A stretch of DNA of 64,000 nucleotides from Paenibacillus sp. FSL W8-0426 (GTDB lineage Bacteria > Bacillota > Bacilli > Paenibacillales > Paenibacillaceae), in assembly GCF_037969725.1 (NCBI RefSeq), contig NZ_CP150203.1:5100001-5164000 (forward strand), written 5' to 3'. The position numbers and the translations under genes are program-made. Below are positions 48,984-60,673 of the stretch, piece after piece (within the stretch, counting starts at the first letter, position 1; each line of letters begins with the position of its first letter). The notes under the pieces were generated by a model. The model did no database searches, was not told where the DNA came from, and saw only the letters and a program-made list of their open reading frames with translations.

Positions 48984-49000
48984 TCAGCAAGGAGGAAAAC

Positions 49001-49756
49001 ATGTCATCCAACACAGCAACTTTGAGGAAACGATGGGCATGCCCCGGTAGTTCTTCGAAGCCAGCCATACAATATGTAACTCACGACCATCTCAACGTTG
49101 TAATTCAAATCAATCATGTTCTGATTCAAGCCTTCCGGGACAGCCTCTCGGCAATCAAAGCAAACTTGACCGCATCCCATCTCTTTCTCTTAACCGATTC
49201 GGAGGGTGTATTGCTGGATCTGGAATACAGCAGCGACCTTGAACAGGAGGTTTTACGATCACCGATTCGCAAGGGCATGGTATTTACCGCCGAAAGCTGC
49301 GGCACTAACGCCATTTCGGAAACGATGGACTTCAATCAAGCGACCTTTTTGCCTCCAGAGAGGCATGAGAGTCCTCTGTTTCAACAATGGCATTGTTACG
49401 CCACACCATTGTCCATAGGCTCGGGGCATGCCGGATATTTGGACGTATCGACCATCGATGCGCACATGCAAGGTGAACTGATTGCCATCGCCAAGCTGAT
49501 TCCGGCTCAAATGCAGAACTGTTACGAAAACCTGGCAGCGCAAGAGGGAGTCGGCGAAACGGGCATAGAATTCACGGAAAGGCAGCGCACCATTTTGAAG
49601 TTGATCGCCCGGGGACTGACGGTCAAGGCGATTGCCCTCAAGCTCAAAATCAAGGAATGCACCGTCAACCACCATAAAAAAGTCATTTTCAACAAATTGG
49701 GCGTTCAATCGAGCACGGAGGCCGTTTCGCTGGCGAGCCGCCTTTCATGCCTGTAA
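49001..49756 (+). CDS. GAF-like sensor with LuxR-type HTH
   Basis: A 251-residue regulator. Residues about 40-165 resemble the GAF domain of AcoR-type activators (AESCGTNAISETMDFNQATF, then WHCYATPLSIGSGHAGYLDV). The C-terminal 65 residues are a LuxR/GerE HTH (FTERQRTILKLIARGLTVKA, then IKECTVNHHKKVIFNKLGV). AAGGAGG precedes the ATG at 49001. Immediately after its stop lies a lux-box-like palindrome in front of a lipoprotein gene, the likely target. Confidence 0.85.
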   Translation: MSSNTATLRKRWACPGSSSKPAIQYVTHDHLNVVIQINHVLIQAFRDSLSAIKANLTASHLFLLTDSEGVLLDLEYSSDLEQEVLRSPIRKGMVFTAESCGTNAISETMDFNQATFLPPERHESPLFQQWHCYATPLSIGSGHAGYLDVSTIDAHMQGELIAIAKLIPAQMQNCYENLAAQEGVGETGIEFTERQRTILKLIARGLTVKAIALKLKIKECTVNHHKKVIFNKLGVQSSTEAVSLASRLSCL

Positions 49757-49758
49757 GC

Positions 49759-49807
49759 CACCTATAGATTTCTATAGGTGTGATACGGGAACGTTTGTTG
49801 CTATACT
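49759..49807 (+). promoter_or_regulatory. Promoter with lux-box-like palindrome
   Basis: CACCTATAGA and TCTATAGGTG form a perfect 10-bp inverted repeat with a TT centre (49759-49780). It abuts a poor -35 (TGTGAT, 49779-49784) that is 17 bp from TATACT (49802-49807). This is the placement expected for an activator such as the LuxR-type protein encoded just upstream. Confidence 0.7.
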
Positions 49808-49867
49808 TTTTGCATGGAATCGCCTAACAGGGAAAAAACAGGCATATTTATTTTACAGGAGGGTATT

Positions 49868-50686
49868 ATGTTTACAACCAAAAAGATGTCTTTAATTGCC
49901 ATGCTGATCATGGTTATGCTCGTAGCTGCCGCTTGCGGCGACAAGGCGAAGGAAAGTAACAGCGCAGAAGAAAAGGTCCAAACGGAAAACGCCGCAAAGA
50001 CGGACAATGCTGCCACCGATGATGCAAAGAAAGAAGCAGCGGATAACGAAACAGCCGATAACGAAGCAGGAGAAAGCAAAGAAACATCCGCGGAAGCTTC
50101 CACGGACGAAGACAAAACCAAAAACGTCGAGCTGGGCACGACCGAAAAAGGATCTTATACGAATGATTACTTTGGCGTATCCCTGAAATTTCCCGAAACG
50201 TGGGAGTTCCAGGACGCTGCCGGAATGAACGAGCTGACGAATGCTTCTTCCGAAGCGATTGCTGGCGACGATGCAACGAAGAAGAAACAGATGGAGCTGT
50301 CGATGCAAAAAACGCTGAACCTGTTGATGGCATCGGAATTGCCGCTCGGTGGTCAAGAAGTTGGACCGTCCGCGATGGCCATTGCCGAGAAAGTAAGCCT
50401 GCTGCAAGGTATTCGCAACGGCAAGGATTATCTCGAAGCCACCAAAAAATTCATGCAGGACAGCCAGTTCCCGTATGAATACAACGATATCACTACCGAA
50501 ACCATCGGCGGCAAAGAGATGGATCTGATGAAAATCACGATGGATGCCGGCAATGGCACCACCCTTACGCAGGAATACTACAGCACCATTCTTGAGGGCT
50601 ATGCTTTCAACTTCATCTTTACGTATTTGGATGACAAGAGCAAAGCCACCATTGATGAAATTAAACAATCCGTGCAATTCAAATAA
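49868..50686 (+). CDS. Lipoprotein of unknown function, probable target of the LuxR-type regulator
   Basis: A 272-residue lipoprotein (lipobox LVAAAC, Cys about 22). A long Ala/Glu/Lys/Asp-rich linker (to about 95) is followed by a globular domain with YTNDYFGVSLKFPETWEFQD and LTQEYYSTILEGYAFNFIFT, resembling PsbP/DUF1795-like lipoproteins. Function unknown. CAGGAGGG lies just upstream of the ATG at 49868. Confidence 0.8.
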   Translation: MFTTKKMSLIAMLIMVMLVAAACGDKAKESNSAEEKVQTENAAKTDNAATDDAKKEAADNETADNEAGESKETSAEASTDEDKTKNVELGTTEKGSYTNDYFGVSLKFPETWEFQDAAGMNELTNASSEAIAGDDATKKKQMELSMQKTLNLLMASELPLGGQEVGPSAMAIAEKVSLLQGIRNGKDYLEATKKFMQDSQFPYEYNDITTETIGGKEMDLMKITMDAGNGTTLTQEYYSTILEGYAFNFIFTYLDDKSKATIDEIKQSVQFK

Positions 50687-50719
50687 TCGTTTGAAGCGAA
50701 CGCCCATGCAAGCTTGAAG

Positions 50720-50768
50720 CAGCCCCGTGTCCATGATCGGCAACGATCGGGACCGGGGCTGTTTGTTT
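50720..50768. terminator. Terminator between convergent genes
   Basis: CAGCCCCG pairs with CGGGGCTG, with an inner ATGATCG/CGATC stem, followed by TTTGTTT. Confidence 0.75.
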
Positions 50769-50844
50769 AGGATCACTCCGAATGCGAATGCATAATGCTG
50801 TGCTGCAATAACGTTCAAGCTTCACCCCACTACCCTCGGCCCTC

Positions 50845-52590
50845 TTACCCCGACATCGCTACCCAGTGTCCTTCCGTGACTTCGACCCAGCGGGATTGCT
50901 CCAGGTTGTAACGATCTCCGCCGTTTTCCCCGGCGTTGTCCTCTGCGGCAATGCGTTTTTTCTTCGACTCCACGGCCGGATCGGGTACCGGAATTGCCGA
51001 AAGCAGCGCTTTGGTATAGGCATGCTGCGGGTTGGAGTATAATTCCTCGCTTTCCGCCAGCTCCACGATTTTGCCTTGATACATGACGGCCACGCGGTCG
51101 CTGATATGTTTGACCATCGACAGGTCATGCGCAATGAACAGATATGTCAGGCCAAGGCGCTGCTGCAGTTCCTGGAGCAGTTGCACGATTTGAGACTGAA
51201 TGGATACGTCGAGGGCGGACAGGGGTTCATCACACACGATAAACTCCGGCTCCACGGCCAATGCCCGGGCGATGCCGATGCGCTGGCGCTGCCCGCCCGA
51301 AAATTCATGCGGATAACGATGCGCATGGGACGGATCTAATCCCACCAGTTCCAGCAATTCTTCCACCCGTTTCTCCCGTTCGGACGTACTGCTGACGAGT
51401 TGATGAATATCCAGCGCCTCGCCGATAATGTCCATAATTTTGAATTTGGGATTGAGCGATGCATACGGATCCTGGAATATGATCTGCATATGGCGTCTCA
51501 TCTTTTTCATTTCCTGCTTGGAAAGACGGCTCATCGGCACGCCTTTGAACAATACCTCGCCGCCTGTAGGTTCGTGCAGCCTTAGAATGGCACGGCCCGT
51601 CGTTGATTTGCCGCTGCCTGATTCCCCGACCACGCCTAACGTTTCCCCTTGCCGGATGTGGAAGCTGATATCGTTGACGGCCTTCAGCGTATTGCCTTTG
51701 CCGAGATTGAAATGCTGGCGAAGCGATTGGACTTCAAGAAGCGGCGCTGCGTCCTCTCCATGGCCCGCTACAAGCGAAGCGGGCTTCGGTTTTTTCTTTT
51801 CGTCCAGCCGCGGCAGCGCATTCAGGAGCTTGATCGTGTAAGGATGCTTCGGATGGGCAAAAATTTCAGCCGTCGTGCCCGTTTCCACGATTTCACCGTT
51901 TTTCATAACGACGACGCGGTCGCACATCCCCGCCACAACCCCCAAGTCGTGCGTAATGAGAATGATCGACGTGCCGAGCTGCTCCTGCATATTTTTCATC
52001 AAATTCAGAATTTGTGCCTGAATGGTCACGTCGAGCGCCGTTGTCGGTTCATCCGCAATCAACAGCTCAGGGCGGCAAGCCAAAGCGATGGCGATCATCA
52101 CCCGCTGGCGCATGCCTCCGGAAAATTCATGCGGATATTGGTTATATCGTACCTCGCTATGCGGAATGCCCACCAATTTCAGCATCTCGATCGCTTGTTT
52201 CTTCGCTTCCCGTTTGGATAAACGCTGGTGTTTGATCAGACTTTCCGCGATTTGTTTTCCGATCTTCACGGTCGGATTAAGCGAGCTCATCGGGTCCTGA
52301 AAGATCATGCCGATGTCGCGCCCGCGGATGCTTTCCATTTCCTTCTGCGTTTTGTGGGCCAGGTCCGTGCCTTTGAACAAAATCTCCCCGCTCTTCATCT
52401 GCGAAGGCGGAGACGGAAGCAGCCTCATGATCGAACGCGCCGTGACGCTCTTGCCGCTGCCTGATTCTCCGACGATGCCCAGCGTCTCGCCCTTGCGCAC
52501 CTCGAACGACACCCCTCGGACCGCATGGAACTCGTCTTCACCTGAATGAAAAGAGACGGAAAGATCATTGATTTTCAATAAAGGCTGCAT
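50845..52590 (-). CDS. Peptide/nickel ABC transporter ATPase, two fused domains
   Basis: A 581-residue protein of two complete OppD/OppF-type ATPases. Each half has a Walker A (GESGSGKS), an ABC signature ([11 protein letters not shown] in the first, [11 protein letters not shown] in the second) and a Walker B ([24 protein letters not shown]), plus the oligopeptide-transporter C-terminal extension. It should energise the permeases encoded divergently from 52737. AGGTG precedes the ATG. Confidence 0.92.
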
Positions 52591-52649
52591 GCCGTCACCT
52601 GCTCTCTTTCAATTTATGGATTGCACTCATATGTACCGATTTCCACGTC

Positions 52650-52678
52650 TTGACAATGTTTGAACCCTGAAATAATAT
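52650..52678 (+). promoter_or_regulatory. Promoter of the permease-binding protein operon
   Basis: Consensus TTGACA and TAATAT are separated by 17 bp in the divergent region before the first permease gene. Confidence 0.7.
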
Positions 52679-52736
52679 ATACTATATTCATCGGAATAAT
52701 GCAATTTAAACTTCAGCGAAAGGGGGATTACTACAT

Positions 52737-54179
52737 TTGAACGTTGCAGAAGGCAGCAAAACGTCACGGCTAGCGGACACCTTGGGTTTCATTTACGGCA
52801 AAATGCTGCAGCACCCCTCGTACCGATATGTTCTGTTCATACTAGGTCTGCCGATCCATTTGATCGTGCTTTTTGTATGGCTTAAGGAACGAAAGCAGGA
52901 TGGCTGGCTCGCTGCCGAGCAGGCCGCAAGGCAGGATCTGCTCGATCCATCCTATCGCGATTCGTTGCGCTCCCGGGTGGAAGATCAGCTCAGGCGCAAG
53001 CACCTGTTCTTCAAACAGCAGGTCAGCGAGCAGGAATTCAAACGCCAGGCTGATGAGTGGATGGAAGAAACGTTTCGAAAGGAACTCCGGGAACGTACCG
53101 CCATTCGTCTTCAAGAGCAAGGACGGCAGCGGTTAACTTTGGCGGATGCGTACCGCTCGTTGATCAGCCACCGTTGGTTTCTGGCGCTCTCGATCATTCC
53201 GGGATGTCTGATGTATCTCATGTTGTTCTTGTACGGGAATTCGTACCTCAAGTACATATTCGAAAGGATTTTGATGACGGTATTCGTCATCTTCGGCGTA
53301 GCTACGCTTGTCTTCACCATTTTGTACCTGTCCCCGTTTAACCCAGCGGCGAACATCTTGGGCGAAACAGCGACGCCGGAACAGATCGCGAACTTTAATC
53401 GCGTGTATGGGCTGGATCAGTCCTACCTGTCTCAACTGTGGAACAACATCAAGGGAATCGCGCTGTTCGATTTGGGCAAATCCTTCACCGGGAACGAAGA
53501 CGTCACGGCAACGATTGCCAGAAAATTCCCGATCACGCTGACCTTGGCGGCTATTTCGCTGCTGCTGGCACTGGTGATCGCTCTGCCGATCGGCATTATT
53601 TCGGCGATCAAGCCGAATTCATGGTTCGATTATACGTTTATGTTTATCGCACTCATCGGGTTGTCCATTCCGAACTTTTGGCAAGGCCTTATCTTTATTC
53701 TGAATTTTTCGATCAAAATGCAGTGGCTGCCCCCTACCTTCAATCCGCAAAATTGGCTATCCATCATCATGCCAACGATTGTGCTGGGAACGGGACTGAC
53801 GGCGGCGGTGGCCCGTATGACGCGTTCTTCCACCCTGGAGGTCATTCATGAGGATTACGTCATGACAGCCCGAGCCAAAGGTTTGAACGAACGCACCGTC
53901 ATATTGAAACACGCCGTTCGCAATGCGCTCATCCCGATTATCACGGTAGTTGGCTTGCAATTTGGGGGCATGCTCGGCGGAGCGGCCGTCACGGAAAAAG
54001 TGTTCAATATTAGCGGACTCGGCAGCTACATCGTCGACAAACAATTTATACCTGATATTCCGAGTATAATGGGCGGAGTAGTATACACTGCCATTACGAT
54101 TTCCATCATCAACGTCATCGTTGATCTGTTGTATGCCTTCATTGATCCGCGTGTACGTTCCAAGATGAAACAATATTAA
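52737..54179 (+). CDS. OppB/DppB-type permease with an extra N-terminal domain
   Basis: A 480-residue membrane protein. The last ~310 residues are a standard OppB-type permease (RILMTVFVIFGVATLVFTIL, EAA loop VMTARAKGLNERTVILKHAV). The first ~170 are unusual: a membrane segment (residues 30-48), a long charged helical region rich in Arg/Glu/Gln, and another membrane segment (about 150-168). It starts with TTG after AAAGGGGG. Typical OppB proteins have about 310 residues. Confidence 0.9.
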   Translation: MNVAEGSKTSRLADTLGFIYGKMLQHPSYRYVLFILGLPIHLIVLFVWLKERKQDGWLAAEQAARQDLLDPSYRDSLRSRVEDQLRRKHLFFKQQVSEQEFKRQADEWMEETFRKELRERTAIRLQEQGRQRLTLADAYRSLISHRWFLALSIIPGCLMYLMLFLYGNSYLKYIFERILMTVFVIFGVATLVFTILYLSPFNPAANILGETATPEQIANFNRVYGLDQSYLSQLWNNIKGIALFDLGKSFTGNEDVTATIARKFPITLTLAAISLLLALVIALPIGIISAIKPNSWFDYTFMFIALIGLSIPNFWQGLIFILNFSIKMQWLPPTFNPQNWLSIIMPTIVLGTGLTAAVARMTRSSTLEVIHEDYVMTARAKGLNERTVILKHAVRNALIPIITVVGLQFGGMLGGAAVTEKVFNISGLGSYIVDKQFIPDIPSIMGGVVYTAITISIINVIVDLLYAFIDPRVRSKMKQY

Positions 54180-54191
54180 AGCAGGTGCATC

Positions 54192-55706
54192 ATGACAAAA
54201 TCGGATTCTACCCTATCGTCCATGCGCTTCCGGCTGAAGTCTTCGCAGGAATACCGTCAGGCAGGCTTCGCCTGGATCGCCACCGTATTGTTGACTTTGC
54301 TGCTGCTGTTGAACAGTTACGACTGGAGCCTCGGGGAGATGAAGCCCTTTGTGCTCACGGCAGCGTTGGTTTATCTGTTTTTCGTGCTCGTCCAGACGTT
54401 GCTGACGCTGAAGCTTCGAGGCGATTTGCTCCAACATGGACAGGTCGGCACGCTCGTTCGCGGACTGGCCTGGGTTCAGCTTCTGGCCGCGTTGTCCGGC
54501 AACATTTTCATCGCTGCGTCCGCATTCCATCTGATCCGGAAGCAGAAGAGCATCGAATATACGTTTGCGGTGTATATGCTGCTCACCCAACTATTCGTGA
54601 TCGGCGTATCCGCATTGAACGTGTTCAAACCGTACGTGTCCGATACATTCCTACCTTCGATGGGAGCACTGCTGGGGCTGCTTGCAGCCGAGTTGGGCGT
54701 GCTCATTTGCATATCCCGTTATCCCGTTCAACGCCATCTTCCGCGTTGGATGACATGGCTGGGTATTCTGCTGATCCTGATCACCGTCACGGGCAATCTG
54801 TTCGCGCTGCTGCTCGGCATTTCGATCATCGGCCGCATCCGTCGGCAGGGAAAACAGAAATCGAACTTCTGGAACGACCTGTGGACCAGGCTCGCTTCCA
54901 ATATCACGGCAATGTCCGGCCTGTTCTTCATCGTCTTCCTGTTCGCGATGTCGATCTGCAGCCTGTATACCTTTGACTATGGCATGGCCGTGGAAAACGA
55001 CTACTCGGCGCTCTTGCAGCCGCCTTCCCTGGCTTATCCGCTCGGGACCGACGATTTCGGGCGCGACCTGTTCTCCCGCATCGTATTCGGAGCCAGAATC
55101 TCGCTCATCGTGGGCTGCTTGTCAACGCTTATTCCCGTCGTGATCGGCGGCGTATTGGGCGCTGTCTCGGGATTCTACGGCAGGCATACGGATAACATCA
55201 TCATGCGGCTGCTCGACATTCTTTATGCCATTCCGGGCATTCTGCTGGCGATCGCCATCATTGCCGCCTTCGGCGCCAATACAGTGAACCTGATTCTCGC
55301 GCTCAGTCTGGGAGCCATACCAACGTATGCCCGTACGATGAGAGCCAGCGTACTGTACGTCTCCACGTTTGAATTCGTGGAAGCCGCTCGTGCGCTCGGT
55401 TATAACAACCGTACCCTAATTTTCAAACACATCATTCCGAACTCGCTCGCCCCGATGATCGTCAAATCGACCCTGACCATCGGCGGCGCCGTCATTGCAA
55501 CCAGCAGCTTGAGTTATCTCGGACTCGGCGTGGAGCCGCACATTCCGGAATGGGGCAACATTCTCAAATTGGGCAGCACGTATCTGGAAACCCATTCGTA
55601 CCTGGCGATCTATCCGGGGCTCGCCATCATTCTGCTGGTGCTCTCATTCAATTTCCTGGGTGACGGATTGCGCGATGCCCTGGATCCAAAGCTGGAAAAG
55701 GCGTAA
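54192..55706 (+). CDS. OppC/DppC-type permease with an extra polytopic N-terminal domain
   Basis: A 504-residue membrane protein. From about residue 235 it is a standard OppC permease (YPLGTDDFGRDLFSRIVFGA, EAA loop FVEAARALGYNNRTLIFKHI). The first ~220 residues hold about six additional membrane segments (for example GFAWIATVLLTLLLLLNSYD and MTWLGILLILITVTGNLFAL) not found in usual OppC proteins of about 300 residues. It follows the other permease by 12 bp. Confidence 0.9.
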   Translation: MTKSDSTLSSMRFRLKSSQEYRQAGFAWIATVLLTLLLLLNSYDWSLGEMKPFVLTAALVYLFFVLVQTLLTLKLRGDLLQHGQVGTLVRGLAWVQLLAALSGNIFIAASAFHLIRKQKSIEYTFAVYMLLTQLFVIGVSALNVFKPYVSDTFLPSMGALLGLLAAELGVLICISRYPVQRHLPRWMTWLGILLILITVTGNLFALLLGISIIGRIRRQGKQKSNFWNDLWTRLASNITAMSGLFFIVFLFAMSICSLYTFDYGMAVENDYSALLQPPSLAYPLGTDDFGRDLFSRIVFGARISLIVGCLSTLIPVVIGGVLGAVSGFYGRHTDNIIMRLLDILYAIPGILLAIAIIAAFGANTVNLILALSLGAIPTYARTMRASVLYVSTFEFVEAARALGYNNRTLIFKHIIPNSLAPMIVKSTLTIGGAVIATSSLSYLGLGVEPHIPEWGNILKLGSTYLETHSYLAIYPGLAIILLVLSFNFLGDGLRDALDPKLEKA

Positions 55707-55822
55707 AACCAAACGACCCGCTTAGCCAAAAATGAGCAATATCCTTTGTTTCGATATTTGCGGAATCAAGCATAGGCATGAATCATCTTTCTTTTATCTG
55801 ACATTATCGTGGAGGTTATGAC

Positions 55823-57652
55823 ATGAAATTAAACAAACGTACGCTATTCTCGCTGCTGCTCGTGCTGGTCATCGTGATTTCCGGCTGCAGCGTCAAAACC
55901 AAATCGGATGCCCAAACAACGGAGACGCCTTCCAATACGGCGGAAACGACGGATCAAACGCCGGTTGACATCGAATTGCTGGCCCAAAGCTCAAGCGAAA
56001 ACGACGTAAACATCATTCGCGATCAGCTGACCAAAAATGGTTTCAACGTCAAGTTGAACCTGCAGCCCGACTATGGCAGCTACAAGTCCCAGCAGGACGC
56101 CGGAAACTATGACATCGCCTTGTCCAGCTGGACGACGGTAACCGGCAACCCGGATTACGCGGTTCGTTCCCTTTTCAAAACCGGCGGGGATTACAGCATT
56201 CTGGCCGACGAGGAAGTCGACAAACTGATCGACCAAGCCGCCACCCAAACGCCGGATCAATACAAAGAAACGTATAAACAATTGGAGCAGCGTCTGGTGA
56301 CGGACCAAGCCTATATCGTACCGCTGTACAATTCGTTGAAAAGCCAAGCCTTGAATCAAGAGGTCCTGAACGCGGATACGGTACGTCTGTCCAAATCACG
56401 GGCCATGGCCTGGGAACCGATTGAGTTCAAAGACAGCTCTCTGAACGCCAAACAGCCTTTGATTCTGACGCAAAGCGCGTCCGTCCTGACTTCCCTTGAC
56501 CCGATCAAAGGCAACGACGGTTCCATCAACCAGTTGAACACCAACATGTATGTGCGTCTGGTGAACTTGACGGACGATGACCAAATCACGCCGGAAGCCT
56601 CCCTTTCCCATAATTACAGCATTGCGGACGGCAATTCCGAATACTATTTCATCCTGCGCGACGACATCAACTTCGCGAAGATCGAAAACAAAAAAGCGGT
56701 GGACACCGGCGAACGCGTAGGCGCGGACGATGTCATCTTCTCCCTGGATCGCGCCAAAAATAAAGATTCCGTGCCGGATCACCGGACATACAGCCTGCAT
56801 GAGCATATCAAAACGGTAGAACTGGTCACCGATCTGGCCGCGCTCGAATCGACGCAGCAATCCGGCGGCGGCGGCTCCGTCAAAGACGCACTGGAGAAAG
56901 GATTGGACAGCAAAATCTCCGAACTGGTATCCGACAAAACAAAGGCCGACAACAAAGCCGGAAAATATCAAGTGGTCAAATTAACAACCACCGAACCTTT
57001 CCCGCAAGTATTGAACTACCTGGCTCACCAATCGGCAGGCATCGTGTCCAAGAAACAGGTCGAAAGCATCAATACGTATGATGTGGCATCGTTTGACGTG
57101 AACAAGGACATTCCTTACGGAGACCAAAATACGGTAACCGAAGGCGCGGCTTACAACAATACGCTGTACACGAGCGGTCCTTACATCCTGTCTTACAAAA
57201 ACGACTACGAAGGCGTGTTCCTGAAAAATCCCGGCTATCGCCCAGGCTCTGAATATGCGCCTAAAATTTCTCAAGTCAACGTTCGCTTCATCGCCGATGC
57301 GGACAGCGCCCTTTCCGCCCTGCGCAGCGGCGAGATCCACGTTTACTACGGCGTCCCTGAAACGAAGTACGACATTATCGAAGGCGACAGCAAATTGAAG
57401 CTGCAAAGCATGCAAAGCAATGCCGTGAGCTACCTGTTGTTCAACACGGCCAACCGCGACGTAGCCAAAAGCAGCGATCTGAGAAAAGCGGTCCTGTATT
57501 CCATCAACCAGGATGACATTCTGCAATTTTACAAAAACAACAAACTCAAAGCTTACTCCACCGTTAGCCCGCTCGTTCAAACCGGAAACGAATTGAAGGC
57601 CGACCCGGCAAAAGTGAAAGAGTTCCTGGCCGCATACAAAGCTTCAAAGTAA
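55823..57652 (+). CDS. SBP family 5 binding lipoprotein with circularly permuted domain order
   Basis: A 609-residue lipoprotein (lipobox VISGCS). Residues about 50-195 match what is normally the C-terminal part of OppA/DppA proteins (IIRDQLTKNGFNVKLNLQPD, YDIALSSWTTVTGNPDYAVR, DQAYIVPLYNSL). The usual N-terminal part starts only near 215 (LILTQSASVLTSLDPIKGND) and runs through YTSGPYILSYKNDYEGVFLK and IADADSALSALRSGEIHVYY. The protein ends at DPAKVKEFLAAYK, where a normal member would continue into the region placed here at the front. GGAGG precedes the ATG. It should bind peptides, nickel or a related ligand. Confidence 0.85.
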   Translation: MKLNKRTLFSLLLVLVIVISGCSVKTKSDAQTTETPSNTAETTDQTPVDIELLAQSSSENDVNIIRDQLTKNGFNVKLNLQPDYGSYKSQQDAGNYDIALSSWTTVTGNPDYAVRSLFKTGGDYSILADEEVDKLIDQAATQTPDQYKETYKQLEQRLVTDQAYIVPLYNSLKSQALNQEVLNADTVRLSKSRAMAWEPIEFKDSSLNAKQPLILTQSASVLTSLDPIKGNDGSINQLNTNMYVRLVNLTDDDQITPEASLSHNYSIADGNSEYYFILRDDINFAKIENKKAVDTGERVGADDVIFSLDRAKNKDSVPDHRTYSLHEHIKTVELVTDLAALESTQQSGGGGSVKDALEKGLDSKISELVSDKTKADNKAGKYQVVKLTTTEPFPQVLNYLAHQSAGIVSKKQVESINTYDVASFDVNKDIPYGDQNTVTEGAAYNNTLYTSGPYILSYKNDYEGVFLKNPGYRPGSEYAPKISQVNVRFIADADSALSALRSGEIHVYYGVPETKYDIIEGDSKLKLQSMQSNAVSYLLFNTANRDVAKSSDLRKAVLYSINQDDILQFYKNNKLKAYSTVSPLVQTGNELKADPAKVKEFLAAYKASK

Positions 57653-57738
57653 GCCTTATGCAGGGCGGTTTGATCAAAGCCGCATCTCTGGCCCTGCCGA
57701 ACCCGGACTAATCCCCGTCTGATCCTTTGGACATCAAA

Positions 57739-57784
57739 CAGCCTCTCCCGCACGCCATGTCGGCTCGCAGGAGAGGCTGTTTTT
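57739..57784 (+). terminator. Terminator of the transporter operon
   Basis: CAGCCTCTCC pairs perfectly with GGAGAGGCTG, followed by TTTTT. The rest of 57653-57922 holds no gene. Confidence 0.88.
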
Positions 57785-57922
57785 CACATTTACATCGTTT
57801 GATCCAATCGGTCTTCATTACATATCGGCACTTCCCGAAAATATTGTGTCATAACCCCCCCACTCTTCCTGTGCTCTATTTCACGAAAACTTCCCCGGGC
57901 AGAAAGAATAACATGGAAAAAC

Positions 57923-57951
57923 TTGATAACGGAACATATGTTCGCTATAAT
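57923..57951 (+). promoter_or_regulatory. SOS promoter with DinR/LexA box in the spacer
   Basis: TTGATA and TATAAT are 17 bp apart. The spacer contains GGAACATATGTTCG (57931-57944), which differs from the Gram-positive LexA box CGAACATATGTTCG at one position. LexA bound here should block the promoter. Confidence 0.82.
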
Positions 57952-57985
57952 ATAAATACTATCCTGTACATACGCGAGGCATAAC

Positions 57986-58186
57986 ATGGACGAAAATTTT
58001 ATCAAGGAACTGCGGGAAACGAGCCGCGAGGACAGAAGAAGGTCCGAACTGATTATTTTGGGCATGAAAGAAACGTTAAAGGTCAGGAAGGAACAAGGGC
58101 GTTTAAAGCGATGGCTTGGATTCAAGAGAGCGGAGAAGAGAATACTGCGACGATTCAACGACTCCCATTTTACCGATTCCAAATAA
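57986..58186 (+). CDS. Small basic protein under SOS control
   Basis: A 66-residue, strongly charged protein (DENFIKELRETSREDRRRSE, then KRWLGFKRAEKRILRRFNDS) with no membrane segment or known motif. It starts with ATG 35 bp after the -10; the ribosome site (GCGAGGC) is weak. It ends near a perfect 10-bp terminator. The LexA box suggests induction by DNA damage. It does not resemble YneA (no LysM) or TisB-type toxins. Function unknown. Confidence 0.7.
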   Translation: MDENFIKELRETSREDRRRSELIILGMKETLKVRKEQGRLKRWLGFKRAEKRILRRFNDSHFTDSK

Positions 58187-58359
58187 TCGAAAGGCAAGCA
58201 CATTAGCGCGAACGATATGTAAGGCATTCCATGCCAAAGAACGTTTCGACATTTGTTCAATAAGAAAAACAACGATTCGCAATTTTTCTTTTGCGGTCAT
58301 AGCCTTGTTCAACTTTAACTTTGCCAAAAACGGGTACCATTCCATAGGTTAAATTCAAA

Positions 58360-58386
58360 ACAGGAGGCCGGGGCGGCCTCCTGTTC
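58360..58386. terminator. Bidirectional terminator
   Basis: ACAGGAGGCC pairs perfectly with GGCCTCCTGT around GGGC, with A- and T-rich flanks. It separates the SOS gene from the convergent cyclase gene. Confidence 0.82.
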
Positions 58387-58411
58387 TTCATTCCGTGTTA
58401 ATGTAATGGAG

Positions 58412-59149
58412 TTATGGCAAGATTGCGAAGGAGCGAACCGGGAAGCCGGATGCCTTTTCGGCCTTGGGCACGATATTAAAGATGACGGCTCCCTTGGCAG
58501 GCACTTGGTCCAAATTCTTCAGCAGCTCCACCTGGTATGTATCTTGAGCAAGCACGTAATACTCTGCCAGCAGCGATCCGTTTTTCTGGTAATCGACCGC
58601 CGCATCCGTATCAAACGTTTCGTGGCCGATCGCCTGAATGCGGCGCTCCTGGAACAAAAACTCCAATGCCCCGACAGACCAGCCCGGTGCATGGCTGTTG
58701 CCTTCGGCATCCTTGTTGTCGAACTGCTCATGGCTTGGCCAGCGTTTGCTCCAATCGGTGCGCAGCGCCACGAAACTGCCCGGCTCGATCGTCCCGTGCT
58801 CCTCCTCGAATGCGAGAATGTGCTCCACATTCAGCGTAAAATCGGAGTTCGCCGCAACCGCTTCGGATTGGTCAATAACAACGAGCGGCAGCACAAGCTC
58901 CTTCAAATCCAGCTCTTCCAGATATCGAGTATCCCGAACGAAATGGATTGGCGCGTCCAGATGTGTGCCGTATTGCCCAGGAAATGTGAAGCTCTGCGCG
59001 AAAAAGCCCTGGTCATGATTGAACAACGTATCAAATCGCGCAGCATCAAAGGCGGAGAAATGCGGTGATTCCGGACCGAAGGTATGGGTCAGGTCAACCC
59101 ATTTTTTCTGTTTCAATAGCTGCAAGGCTTGTAAAAGTTCGTTCGACAT
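58412..59149 (-). CDS. Cyclase family protein (kynurenine-formamidase-like)
   Basis: A 245-residue metal-dependent hydrolase of the cyclase family. The metal motif is GTHLDAPIHF, preceded by WVDLTHTFGPESPHFSAF and followed by GFVALRTDWSKRWP. Relatives include KynB and isatin hydrolase. AGGTG precedes the ATG. It stands alone; no kynurenine genes are nearby. Confidence 0.85.
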   Translation of the reverse strand: MSNELLQALQLLKQKKWVDLTHTFGPESPHFSAFDAARFDTLFNHDQGFFAQSFTFPGQYGTHLDAPIHFVRDTRYLEELDLKELVLPLVVIDQSEAVAANSDFTLNVEHILAFEEEHGTIEPGSFVALRTDWSKRWPSHEQFDNKDAEGNSHAPGWSVGALEFLFQERRIQAIGHETFDTDAAVDYQKNGSLLAEYYVLAQDTYQVELLKNLDQVPAKGAVIFNIVPKAEKASGFPVRSFAILP

Positions 59150-59285
59150 TTGAAATCACCTCATGCGTATATTGGAATAAATTTCTCCTATTATATCCCA
59201 TCCCCTCGGATTTGTGGAGTATCCCCATGTGGAATATATGAAATAAAAAATTCCAATAATGTTCGGTCATATGTCCCCACAAGCG

Positions 59286-59310
59286 AAAAAGCCGTGCCTA
59301 GGGCACGACT
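59286..59310 (-). terminator. Terminator of the khtTU operon
   Basis: On the minus strand GTCGTGCC pairs with GGCACGGC (one G-U) and is followed by TTTTT, downstream of the khtU stop. Confidence 0.75.
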
Positions 59311-59446
59311 TTCCCAACAATATGATGTCTTTCCGTTGTCTTTGGGGTCTGTACACATCTCCCCCGTATCCAAGCAAGACTCAGGGTATTTCATCTGCCA
59401 CCTTATTTCTAATACGCTTCCTTCTACGCTTCTTTATTTTGCTTCT

Positions 59447-60673
59447 TTACTGAGATTTCTCACGAGCTTCCTCACTTTGCTTCTTGCTGCCCCTTTTCCG
59501 AAAACGCTCGTATTGCTTGTAAACCCATGGCGACTCCTTCGTCAGAATTGGGCCAAGCACGGCCAGAATCAACACGTACAGCACGGCAAACGACTGAATG
59601 GAGGCCATTAGGCCTCCCGCTTTGCCGATGTTGGCCATGATGATCGAGAACTCTCCCCGCGACACCAGCGTAAATCCTACGTTCAGCGAAGCTTTGGGCG
59701 ACATGCCGGACAGCCTGCCCGCAATCATGCCGGCACCGTAGTTGCATACAATCGTCAGCACAACGGCGAGCACCGTCATGCCCACCGCTCCCCCAAGCGA
59801 GGCAGGTTCGATCGTCAAGCCAAACCCGAAGAAAAAAATCGCGCCGAAAAAATCTTTGAACGGCATCACCTGATGCTCGATCCGGGAAGCATGCCTGGAC
59901 TCACCCAGCACAAGCCCCATCATCAGCGCACCGATGGCTTCGGCAACATGCAGCGTTTCGGAGAATCCAGCCACGAGAAACAGCAAGGTCATGACCGTTA
60001 ACAGAAACAGCTCCGATGATTTGATGTTCAGCGCTTTGTCGATGTACTTGATGCATTTCCGTCCAACGACGAGGAACACCACGATAAACAGCAGTGCCGA
60101 CAAACACACCAGCAGCACGCTTAAGAACGAAGTCGCTCCGCTAAGCACAAGACCTGTCAAAATGGAAATATGAATGGCAATGAACAGATCATCGAACATG
60201 ATCATGCCCATGATGATTTCCGTTTCCGGATTTGCGGTGCGCTTCAGATCGACCAGTACCTTGGCCACGATGGCGGTAGAGGAACTGGTCATGATGCCGC
60301 ATACCACCAGCGTTTCTTTCAGCGGCAGATCCGCCAGCCAGCCCAGGAGCAGACCTGAAGCAAAATTCAAGCCCACATAGAACATGCCCCCGGTCAGAAT
60401 GGCTTTGCCCGACTTCATGAGCCGGGACACCGAAAATTCCAGCCCAAGATAAAACAGCAAAAACAGTATGCCCAACCTGCCCATGAATTCGATAAAGGTT
60501 GAGCTTTCAATAAAACGCAAATCCACGATGCCCCACTGGGGGGCATGCGGACCGACAGCCATGCCGATCAGAATATAGAACGGAATGACCGAAAAACGCA
60601 ATCGTGCGGATATAAGCCCCGTAAGTGTAATCAGCGCAACGGCAATTCCCACTTCGAATATGAGCTTATCCAT
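59447..60673 (-). CDS. khtU: K+/H+ antiporter, CPA2 family
   Basis: A 408-residue membrane protein with about twelve segments. Typical CPA2 features are FLLFYLGLEFSVSRLM, CGIMTSSSTAIVAKVLVDLK, MGMIMFDDLFIAI and NVGFTLVSRGEFSIIMANIG. With KhtT it forms a potassium efflux system in Bacillus that protects against methylglyoxal or alkali. It follows khtT by three bases. The charged C-terminus (about 30 residues) is cytoplasmic. Confidence 0.9.
   Translation of the reverse strand: MDKLIFEVGIAVALITLTGLISARLRFSVIPFYILIGMAVGPHAPQWGIVDLRFIESSTFIEFMGRLGILFLLFYLGLEFSVSRLMKSGKAILTGGMFYVGLNFASGLLLGWLADLPLKETLVVCGIMTSSSTAIVAKVLVDLKRTANPETEIIMGMIMFDDLFIAIHISILTGLVLSGATSFLSVLLVCLSALLFIVVFLVVGRKCIKYIDKALNIKSSELFLLTVMTLLFLVAGFSETLHVAEAIGALMMGLVLGESRHASRIEHQVMPFKDFFGAIFFFGFGLTIEPASLGGAVGMTVLAVVLTIVCNYGAGMIAGRLSGMSPKASLNVGFTLVSRGEFSIIMANIGKAGGLMASIQSFAVLYVLILAVLGPILTKESPWVYKQYERFRKRGSKKQSEEAREKSQ

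Follow-up and report, generated by a model that had tools for sequence, protein, structure and literature searches.

The 64,000-nucleotide stretch of the Paenibacillus sp. FSL W8-0426 genome analysed here (NZ_CP150203.1, positions 5,100,001 to 5,164,000; hereafter the window) encodes, at positions 55823 to 57652 of its forward strand, a GisD-like lipoprotein of 609 residues, read in one frame from an ATG codon, which is very probably a naturally circularly permuted solute-binding protein (SBP) of family 5, that is, an importer binder of cluster C and of the OppA/DppA/GsiB type. An earlier note on this DNA had already read the protein as a circular permutation and not as a truncation or a fusion, and that claim has held: circular permutation is the best reading because every block occurs a single time, the rotated sequence can be aligned with DppA from end to end, the fold is predicted with confidence from about residue 45 to 609, and the order of the blocks is kept among relatives. 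The parts were likewise said to occur once each, in a single frame and behind a lipobox, and the protein to stop at ADPAKVKEFLAAYKASK; both statements agree with the present analysis, in which the C-terminal end is read at that place and the new C-terminus lies directly after DPAKVKEFLAAYK.

The protein begins with a signal peptide that runs, with the lipobox ISGC, up to Cys22 (55823 to 55888, forward strand, as are all parts of the gene), a cysteine that is kept in 128 of the 128 rows of the family alignment. It is followed by a low-complexity tether, residues 23–45 (55889 to 55957), where the predicted local distance difference test score (pLDDT) is below 50 at residues 17–43. Next comes the displaced block, residues 46–205 (55958 to 56437), which corresponds to the C-terminal block of DppA and GsiB (approximately 372–516 of the DppA precursor) according to phmmer, HHalign, the Pfam profile and the secondary structure of the model; its position at the front is as described earlier, and its borders, formerly given as about 50–195, are corrected to about 46–205. 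Residues 206–609 (56438 to 57649) correspond to the N-terminal and middle parts of DppA and GsiB (approximately 36–371 of the DppA precursor), and the bridge that takes the former C-terminus to the former N-terminus occupies about residues 190–213 (56390 to 56461), within the optimum for rotation at 185–215.

The block order was established by several profile and sequence comparisons. With phmmer, the binder matches E. coli DppA (1dpp) in three stretches, query 65–181 to DppA 368–488, 242–336 to 32–125 and 479–590 to 208–319, so that the C-terminal block comes first along the chain, then the N-terminal and then the middle block; the match as a whole has an E-value of 1.6e-9 and the single stretches are weak (i-E 0.1 to 2.8), and therefore the proof of rotation lies in the profile work. 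The only Pfam family found is SBP_bac_5 (PF00496), with 139.3 bits against a gathering score of 32.4. Within the same genome this model matches at 17 other places, each as one stretch that starts at profile position 1–7 (one of them, L189, spans profile positions 1–162 only), and the locus in the window is the only one in which profile positions 299–366 lie upstream of 8–275.

The family alignment (128 rows, 38–89% identity to the window protein) was rotated at several cuts and compared by HHalign with 13 normal-order proteins, five from E. coli K-12 and eight from the same genome. The unrotated profile scores 252.0 over 318 columns (E 2.1e-32), the profile rotated at cuts 185–215 scores 350 over 457 columns (E 1.5e-45), and rotation at cut 510 gives 172; the window sequence alone behaves in the same manner (188 unrotated, 272–273 at the optimum, 137 at cut 510), and four of four normal-order controls put through the same rotation score best unrotated. 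The rotated alignment with DppA is continuous from precursor residue 36 to 516 and uses both blocks once. It places the new termini between the DppA helix DPEKAKALL and the next strand, and joins the old ones within about residues 190–213. HHalign joined the first and second matching segments, which single-domain HMMER scans left unjoined, probably because of a long insert around residues 335–440. Taken together, the HHalign rotation, the phmmer stretches and the order of the Pfam model agree with the earlier description of a C-terminal block that precedes the N-terminal segments.

The AlphaFold2 model built from the 128-row alignment has a pLDDT of 90.6 and a predicted template modelling score of 0.86. 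In structure comparison the binder shows the family-5 (SBP_bac_5) fold, and it departs from the canonical block order of that family. Order-dependent alignments to binders in the PDB begin at model residues 199–212 and leave out the front block; the VIA-align rows, in which residues 46–198 are absent, give no basis for the fold of that block. Among 43 matching sequences in the PDB no structure was seen that matches the permuted family at full length in its own order, the best stretches being partial.

On this reading, the polypeptide would start inside what is usually lobe 2, directly behind the helix DPxKAKxLL, and then run through the usual C-terminal block, the bridge (about 190–213) over the ancestral termini, and the N-terminal and middle parts, to finish with the helix DPAKVKEFL. 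An ordinary two-lobed binder would form in this way, and, if the lobe borders of DppA are where we take them to be, the lipid anchor would hang, by a tether of about 25 residues, from lobe 2 and not from lobe 1. Such an architecture could have originated by tandem duplication and trimming, of which no intermediate was seen.

The permuted order is conserved. In a scan of species genomes, 300 stretches were confirmed to encode relatives, and the best 80 of them, with 70–100% identity, were kept; they belong to Paenibacillus, Brevibacillus, Saccharibacillus, Cytobacillus, Neobacillus, Bacillus, Lederbergia and Sporosarcina, and one record is titled Arthrobacter and is perhaps mislabelled. In 80 of these 80 relatives the native-order query is matched from residue 21 or earlier to residue 600 or later, and all 128 rows of the family alignment align in native order. 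In a class-wide draw of 398 genomes, own genome included, the SBP was found at E 1e-25 or better in 35, nearly full length in 34 of them and as a 218-residue piece in one. An assembly error or a rearranged pseudogene in Paenibacillus sp. FSL W8-0426, which would create an apparent rotation in a single genome, is excluded for practical purposes because the 80 relatives share both the order and a four-gene module with extended permeases; the same order in the aligned rows and in 34 of the 35 class-wide genomes (the last holding only a fragment) leads to the same conclusion. The original reading had named evidence of an assembly error as a refutation and a search for homologues with the permuted order and two extended permeases as a check; no such error is seen, and the relatives have the order in all 80 and the permease extensions in most.

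When 12 rotated family members are placed in a tree with 21 normal-order binders, the permuted proteins fall into one group (100/100), which is consistent with a single origin without proving it. This group has a long stem (1.97 changes per column) and the tree does not resolve its sister, so that the two blocks are not traced to one ancestor. This leaves some room for a chimera, in which the front block and the rest would come from two family-5 binders fused to each other instead of from a permuted single ancestor, and yet we consider such a recombinant improbable: the rotated alignment that runs from DppA residue 36 to 516 and uses both blocks once is explained by permutation without coincidence.

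Some observations count against the permutation or its generality. A first structure prediction, based on 24 close relatives, gave a weak model with a pLDDT of 65.5, and the 128-row model took its place. That residues 46–205 occupy the position of the usual C-terminal block is drawn from sequence profiles, from the order of secondary structure and from the confident whole-chain model, so that the structural refutation named in the earlier note is answered only indirectly. The module is also patchy: 10 of the 36 genomes of the same genus have no match at E 1e-30. Among near relatives it was found in 28 of 59 genomes (26 of the 36 in the genus, own included), and a phylum-wide draw (398 genomes, E 1e-60, up to three candidates scored per genome) yielded four, own included and all of the same genus. 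One genome, G787, has a decayed module: a 215-residue piece of the binder remains beside the tail of an ATPase (L163, 8984 to 9812), and no permease is matched in that stretch.

Natural permutation has a precedent among lipid-anchored binders of ATP-binding cassette importers in TpMglB-2 (Tp0684), which has Gram-positive relatives and for which the names "Type Ic" and "Cluster Bc" have been proposed; unlike the present family, it is a Type I, cluster B protein with a glucose-binding fold and not a member of family 5 (PMC4990184, accessible part). In the literature on permuted solute-binding proteins, of which few subscription papers were covered, no report of a family-5 permutation was found, and TpMglB-2 is the only relevant case among the matches listed. 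With E. coli GsiB, DppA and OppA the window protein shares family (SBP_bac_5) and fold, the rotated alignment spanning DppA 36–516, and it differs from them in block order and in where the termini, and consequently the anchor, are located.

The binder would work with an importer of its own, which combines a fused double ATPase with two permeases that are extended at their N-termini. The GisB-like permease (52737 to 54179, forward; 480 residues) carries an extension of about 170 residues, in which a charged stretch separates two hydrophobic segments, and the GisC-like permease (54192 to 55706, forward; 504 residues) one of approximately 220 residues with six hydrophobic segments before the OppC-type permease; the recognised permease part starts only at residues 171 and 226, respectively. 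The GisA-like fused double ATPase is transcribed divergently (50845 to 52590, reverse). The order of divergent ATPase, permease, permease and SBP is present in 80 of the 80 relatives, with non-overlapping matches in 79; in the remaining locus, L052 by its coordinates, the matches of the two permeases share five bases. In the best tblastn segments, the alignment of the GisB extension begins no later than residue 29 in 78 of 80 loci; that of the GisC extension begins no later than residue 16 in 75, and only at residue 102–116 in the other five. Class-wide, the GisB extension was found in 29 of 398 genomes, all among the 35 SBP carriers; of the other six carriers, five have a GisB-like permease that, read directly, aligns from query residue 19–29, and G787 has remnants only.

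Within the GisC extension (residues 1–225; 54192 to 54866), the second group of three segments shares 42% identity over 104 positions with the only such group in a more distant locus (L157). Together with the five loci that align only from about this second group, this suggests that a unit of three helices was gained or lost; BLAST between the two halves of the extension gave no internal repeat.

The extended permeases travel with the permuted binder, and from this co-occurrence it may be supposed that the two features are coupled and that the permutation affects docking on the permeases. A bolder and rather unlikely proposal is that the permutation is a functional re-engineering, which moved the anchor from lobe 1 to lobe 2 and co-evolved with the extra membrane segments of the two permeases to give a tether-and-dock importer ("cluster Cc"); when the binder meets its permeases, it would then be held at the membrane by the opposite lobe. 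Receptors of family 5 are very frequent in bacteria, and a widespread, conserved permutation of one of them means that termini and lipid anchor can be relocated on the scaffold. The family also permits a direct test of whether the position of the anchor matters for delivery to the permeases.

As for the cargo, glutathione (GSH) and/or its disulfide (GSSG), which would be used as a sulfur source, is the likeliest because the Staphylococcus-type members share the GisABCD-Ggt arrangement, and we favour it with some reserve, given that it is drawn at 40% identity and with no adjacent ggt. GisABCD-Ggt, in which gisA is divergent from gisBCD-ggt, supports growth on GSH and GSSG (PMC10355420, accessible part). 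The most distant members read (39–40% identity) have the order ATPase (reverse strand), permease, permease, SBP and ggt, as in L157, and ggt adjoins the SBP in three of three Staphylococcus-type loci (L157–L159). The closest named match of the L157 binder is S. aureus protein P0122 (80% identity), which belongs to the permuted family; the staphylococcal origin of these loci and the identification of P0122 as GisD depend on their match to the published arrangement, with which the window shares the divergent ATPase, the two permeases and the lipoprotein binder, the difference being that ggt lies within the staphylococcal operon and not next to that of the window. All four module genes, with the ATPase divergent, are 40–50% identical to their L157 counterparts.

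Import of something else, such as other small peptides, opine-like compounds or metal chelates, is the less probable of the two possibilities but a serious one, and several facts weigh in its favour and against glutathione. The window binder is only 40% identical to the staphylococcal protein. Within a range of up to 10 kb on each side of the loci (several shorter, and two of the 80 with less than 3 kb downstream), 0 of the 80 and 0 of six other loci matched the L157 ggt, which leaves the three Staphylococcus-type loci as the only ones where ggt was found to adjoin the SBP; no ggt lies beside the gene in the window, and its genome has two ggt genes elsewhere. NCBIfam models (SapA, NikA, GsiB, DppA and others) all match far under their cut-offs, four binders of the same genome outscore GsiB against the family profile, and the full set of glutathione contacts is not transferable, the accessible parts of PMC6236770, PMC3295651 and PMC11719327 containing no complete residue list. 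On the other side stand the relatedness of the four module genes to L157 and a few local motifs: the family has WTTVTGNPDYA, closer to WSASTGEADWA of GsiB than to WTGDNGDPDNF of DppA, and NYLAHQ, closer to NILAHP of GsiB than to ADLAMD of DppA, with LVHP at this place in OppA. Val106 aligns with DppA precursor Asp436, which is, in the renumbering made here, the ligand contact D408 of the mature protein (PMC3295651, accessible part). These GsiB-like features are weak hints.

It has been stated that S. aureus and its close relatives alone possess complete Gis systems, and that the sequences of GisD and GsiB indicate different recognition (PMC10355420, accessible part). This difference may partly reflect the hidden rotation. 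Alignments that keep the linear order can misjudge proteins of the GisD type, for example in a comparison of their substrate recognition with that of GsiB; the string "permut" is absent from the main text of the Gis papers PMC10355420 and PMC12510641. Three further proteins of 873 residues (P0124–P0126) are reading frames that join permease and binder domains. In the only one read, P0126 of S. aureus, a GisC-like permease passes into a GisD-like binder at a shared FLG, with loss of the permease end and the signal peptide, a join that is like a deletion between short repeats.

The permease/SBP operon has a likely promoter, read by eye, at 52650 to 52678 (forward; TTGACA, 17 bases, TAATAT), and directly 3' of its -10 lies a conserved element, TACTATATTCATCGGAATAATGCAAT (52680 to 52705, forward), which is a candidate operator. 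The element, TACTATA...ATCGGAATAATGCAAT, sits between the divergent ATPase and permease genes; the form TACTATA, four bases, TCGGAAT is present in 60 of 88 ATPase–permease intergenic regions and a looser form in 69, with none of the looser form in the three Staphylococcus-type regions. It occurs once in its own genome with up to three mismatches allowed, and therefore no sulfur regulon is seen. That it is a site for CymR, the cysteine repressor, is a suspicion only, the accessible parts of PMC3519770 and PMC2869319 offering no printed consensus for comparison. Rfam gave no match at gathering score over 49000 to 59500.

On the 3' side of the binder gene, positions 57739 to 57784 contain a hairpin (CAGCCTCTCC...GGAGAGGCTG) followed by five T, read by eye as a likely terminator. 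At the other end of the module, an open reading frame of 290 residues (49814 to 50686) adjoins the ATPase gene; it apparently encodes a lipoprotein with a charged low-complexity stretch, and is matched at E 1e-20 in 19 of the 80 relatives.
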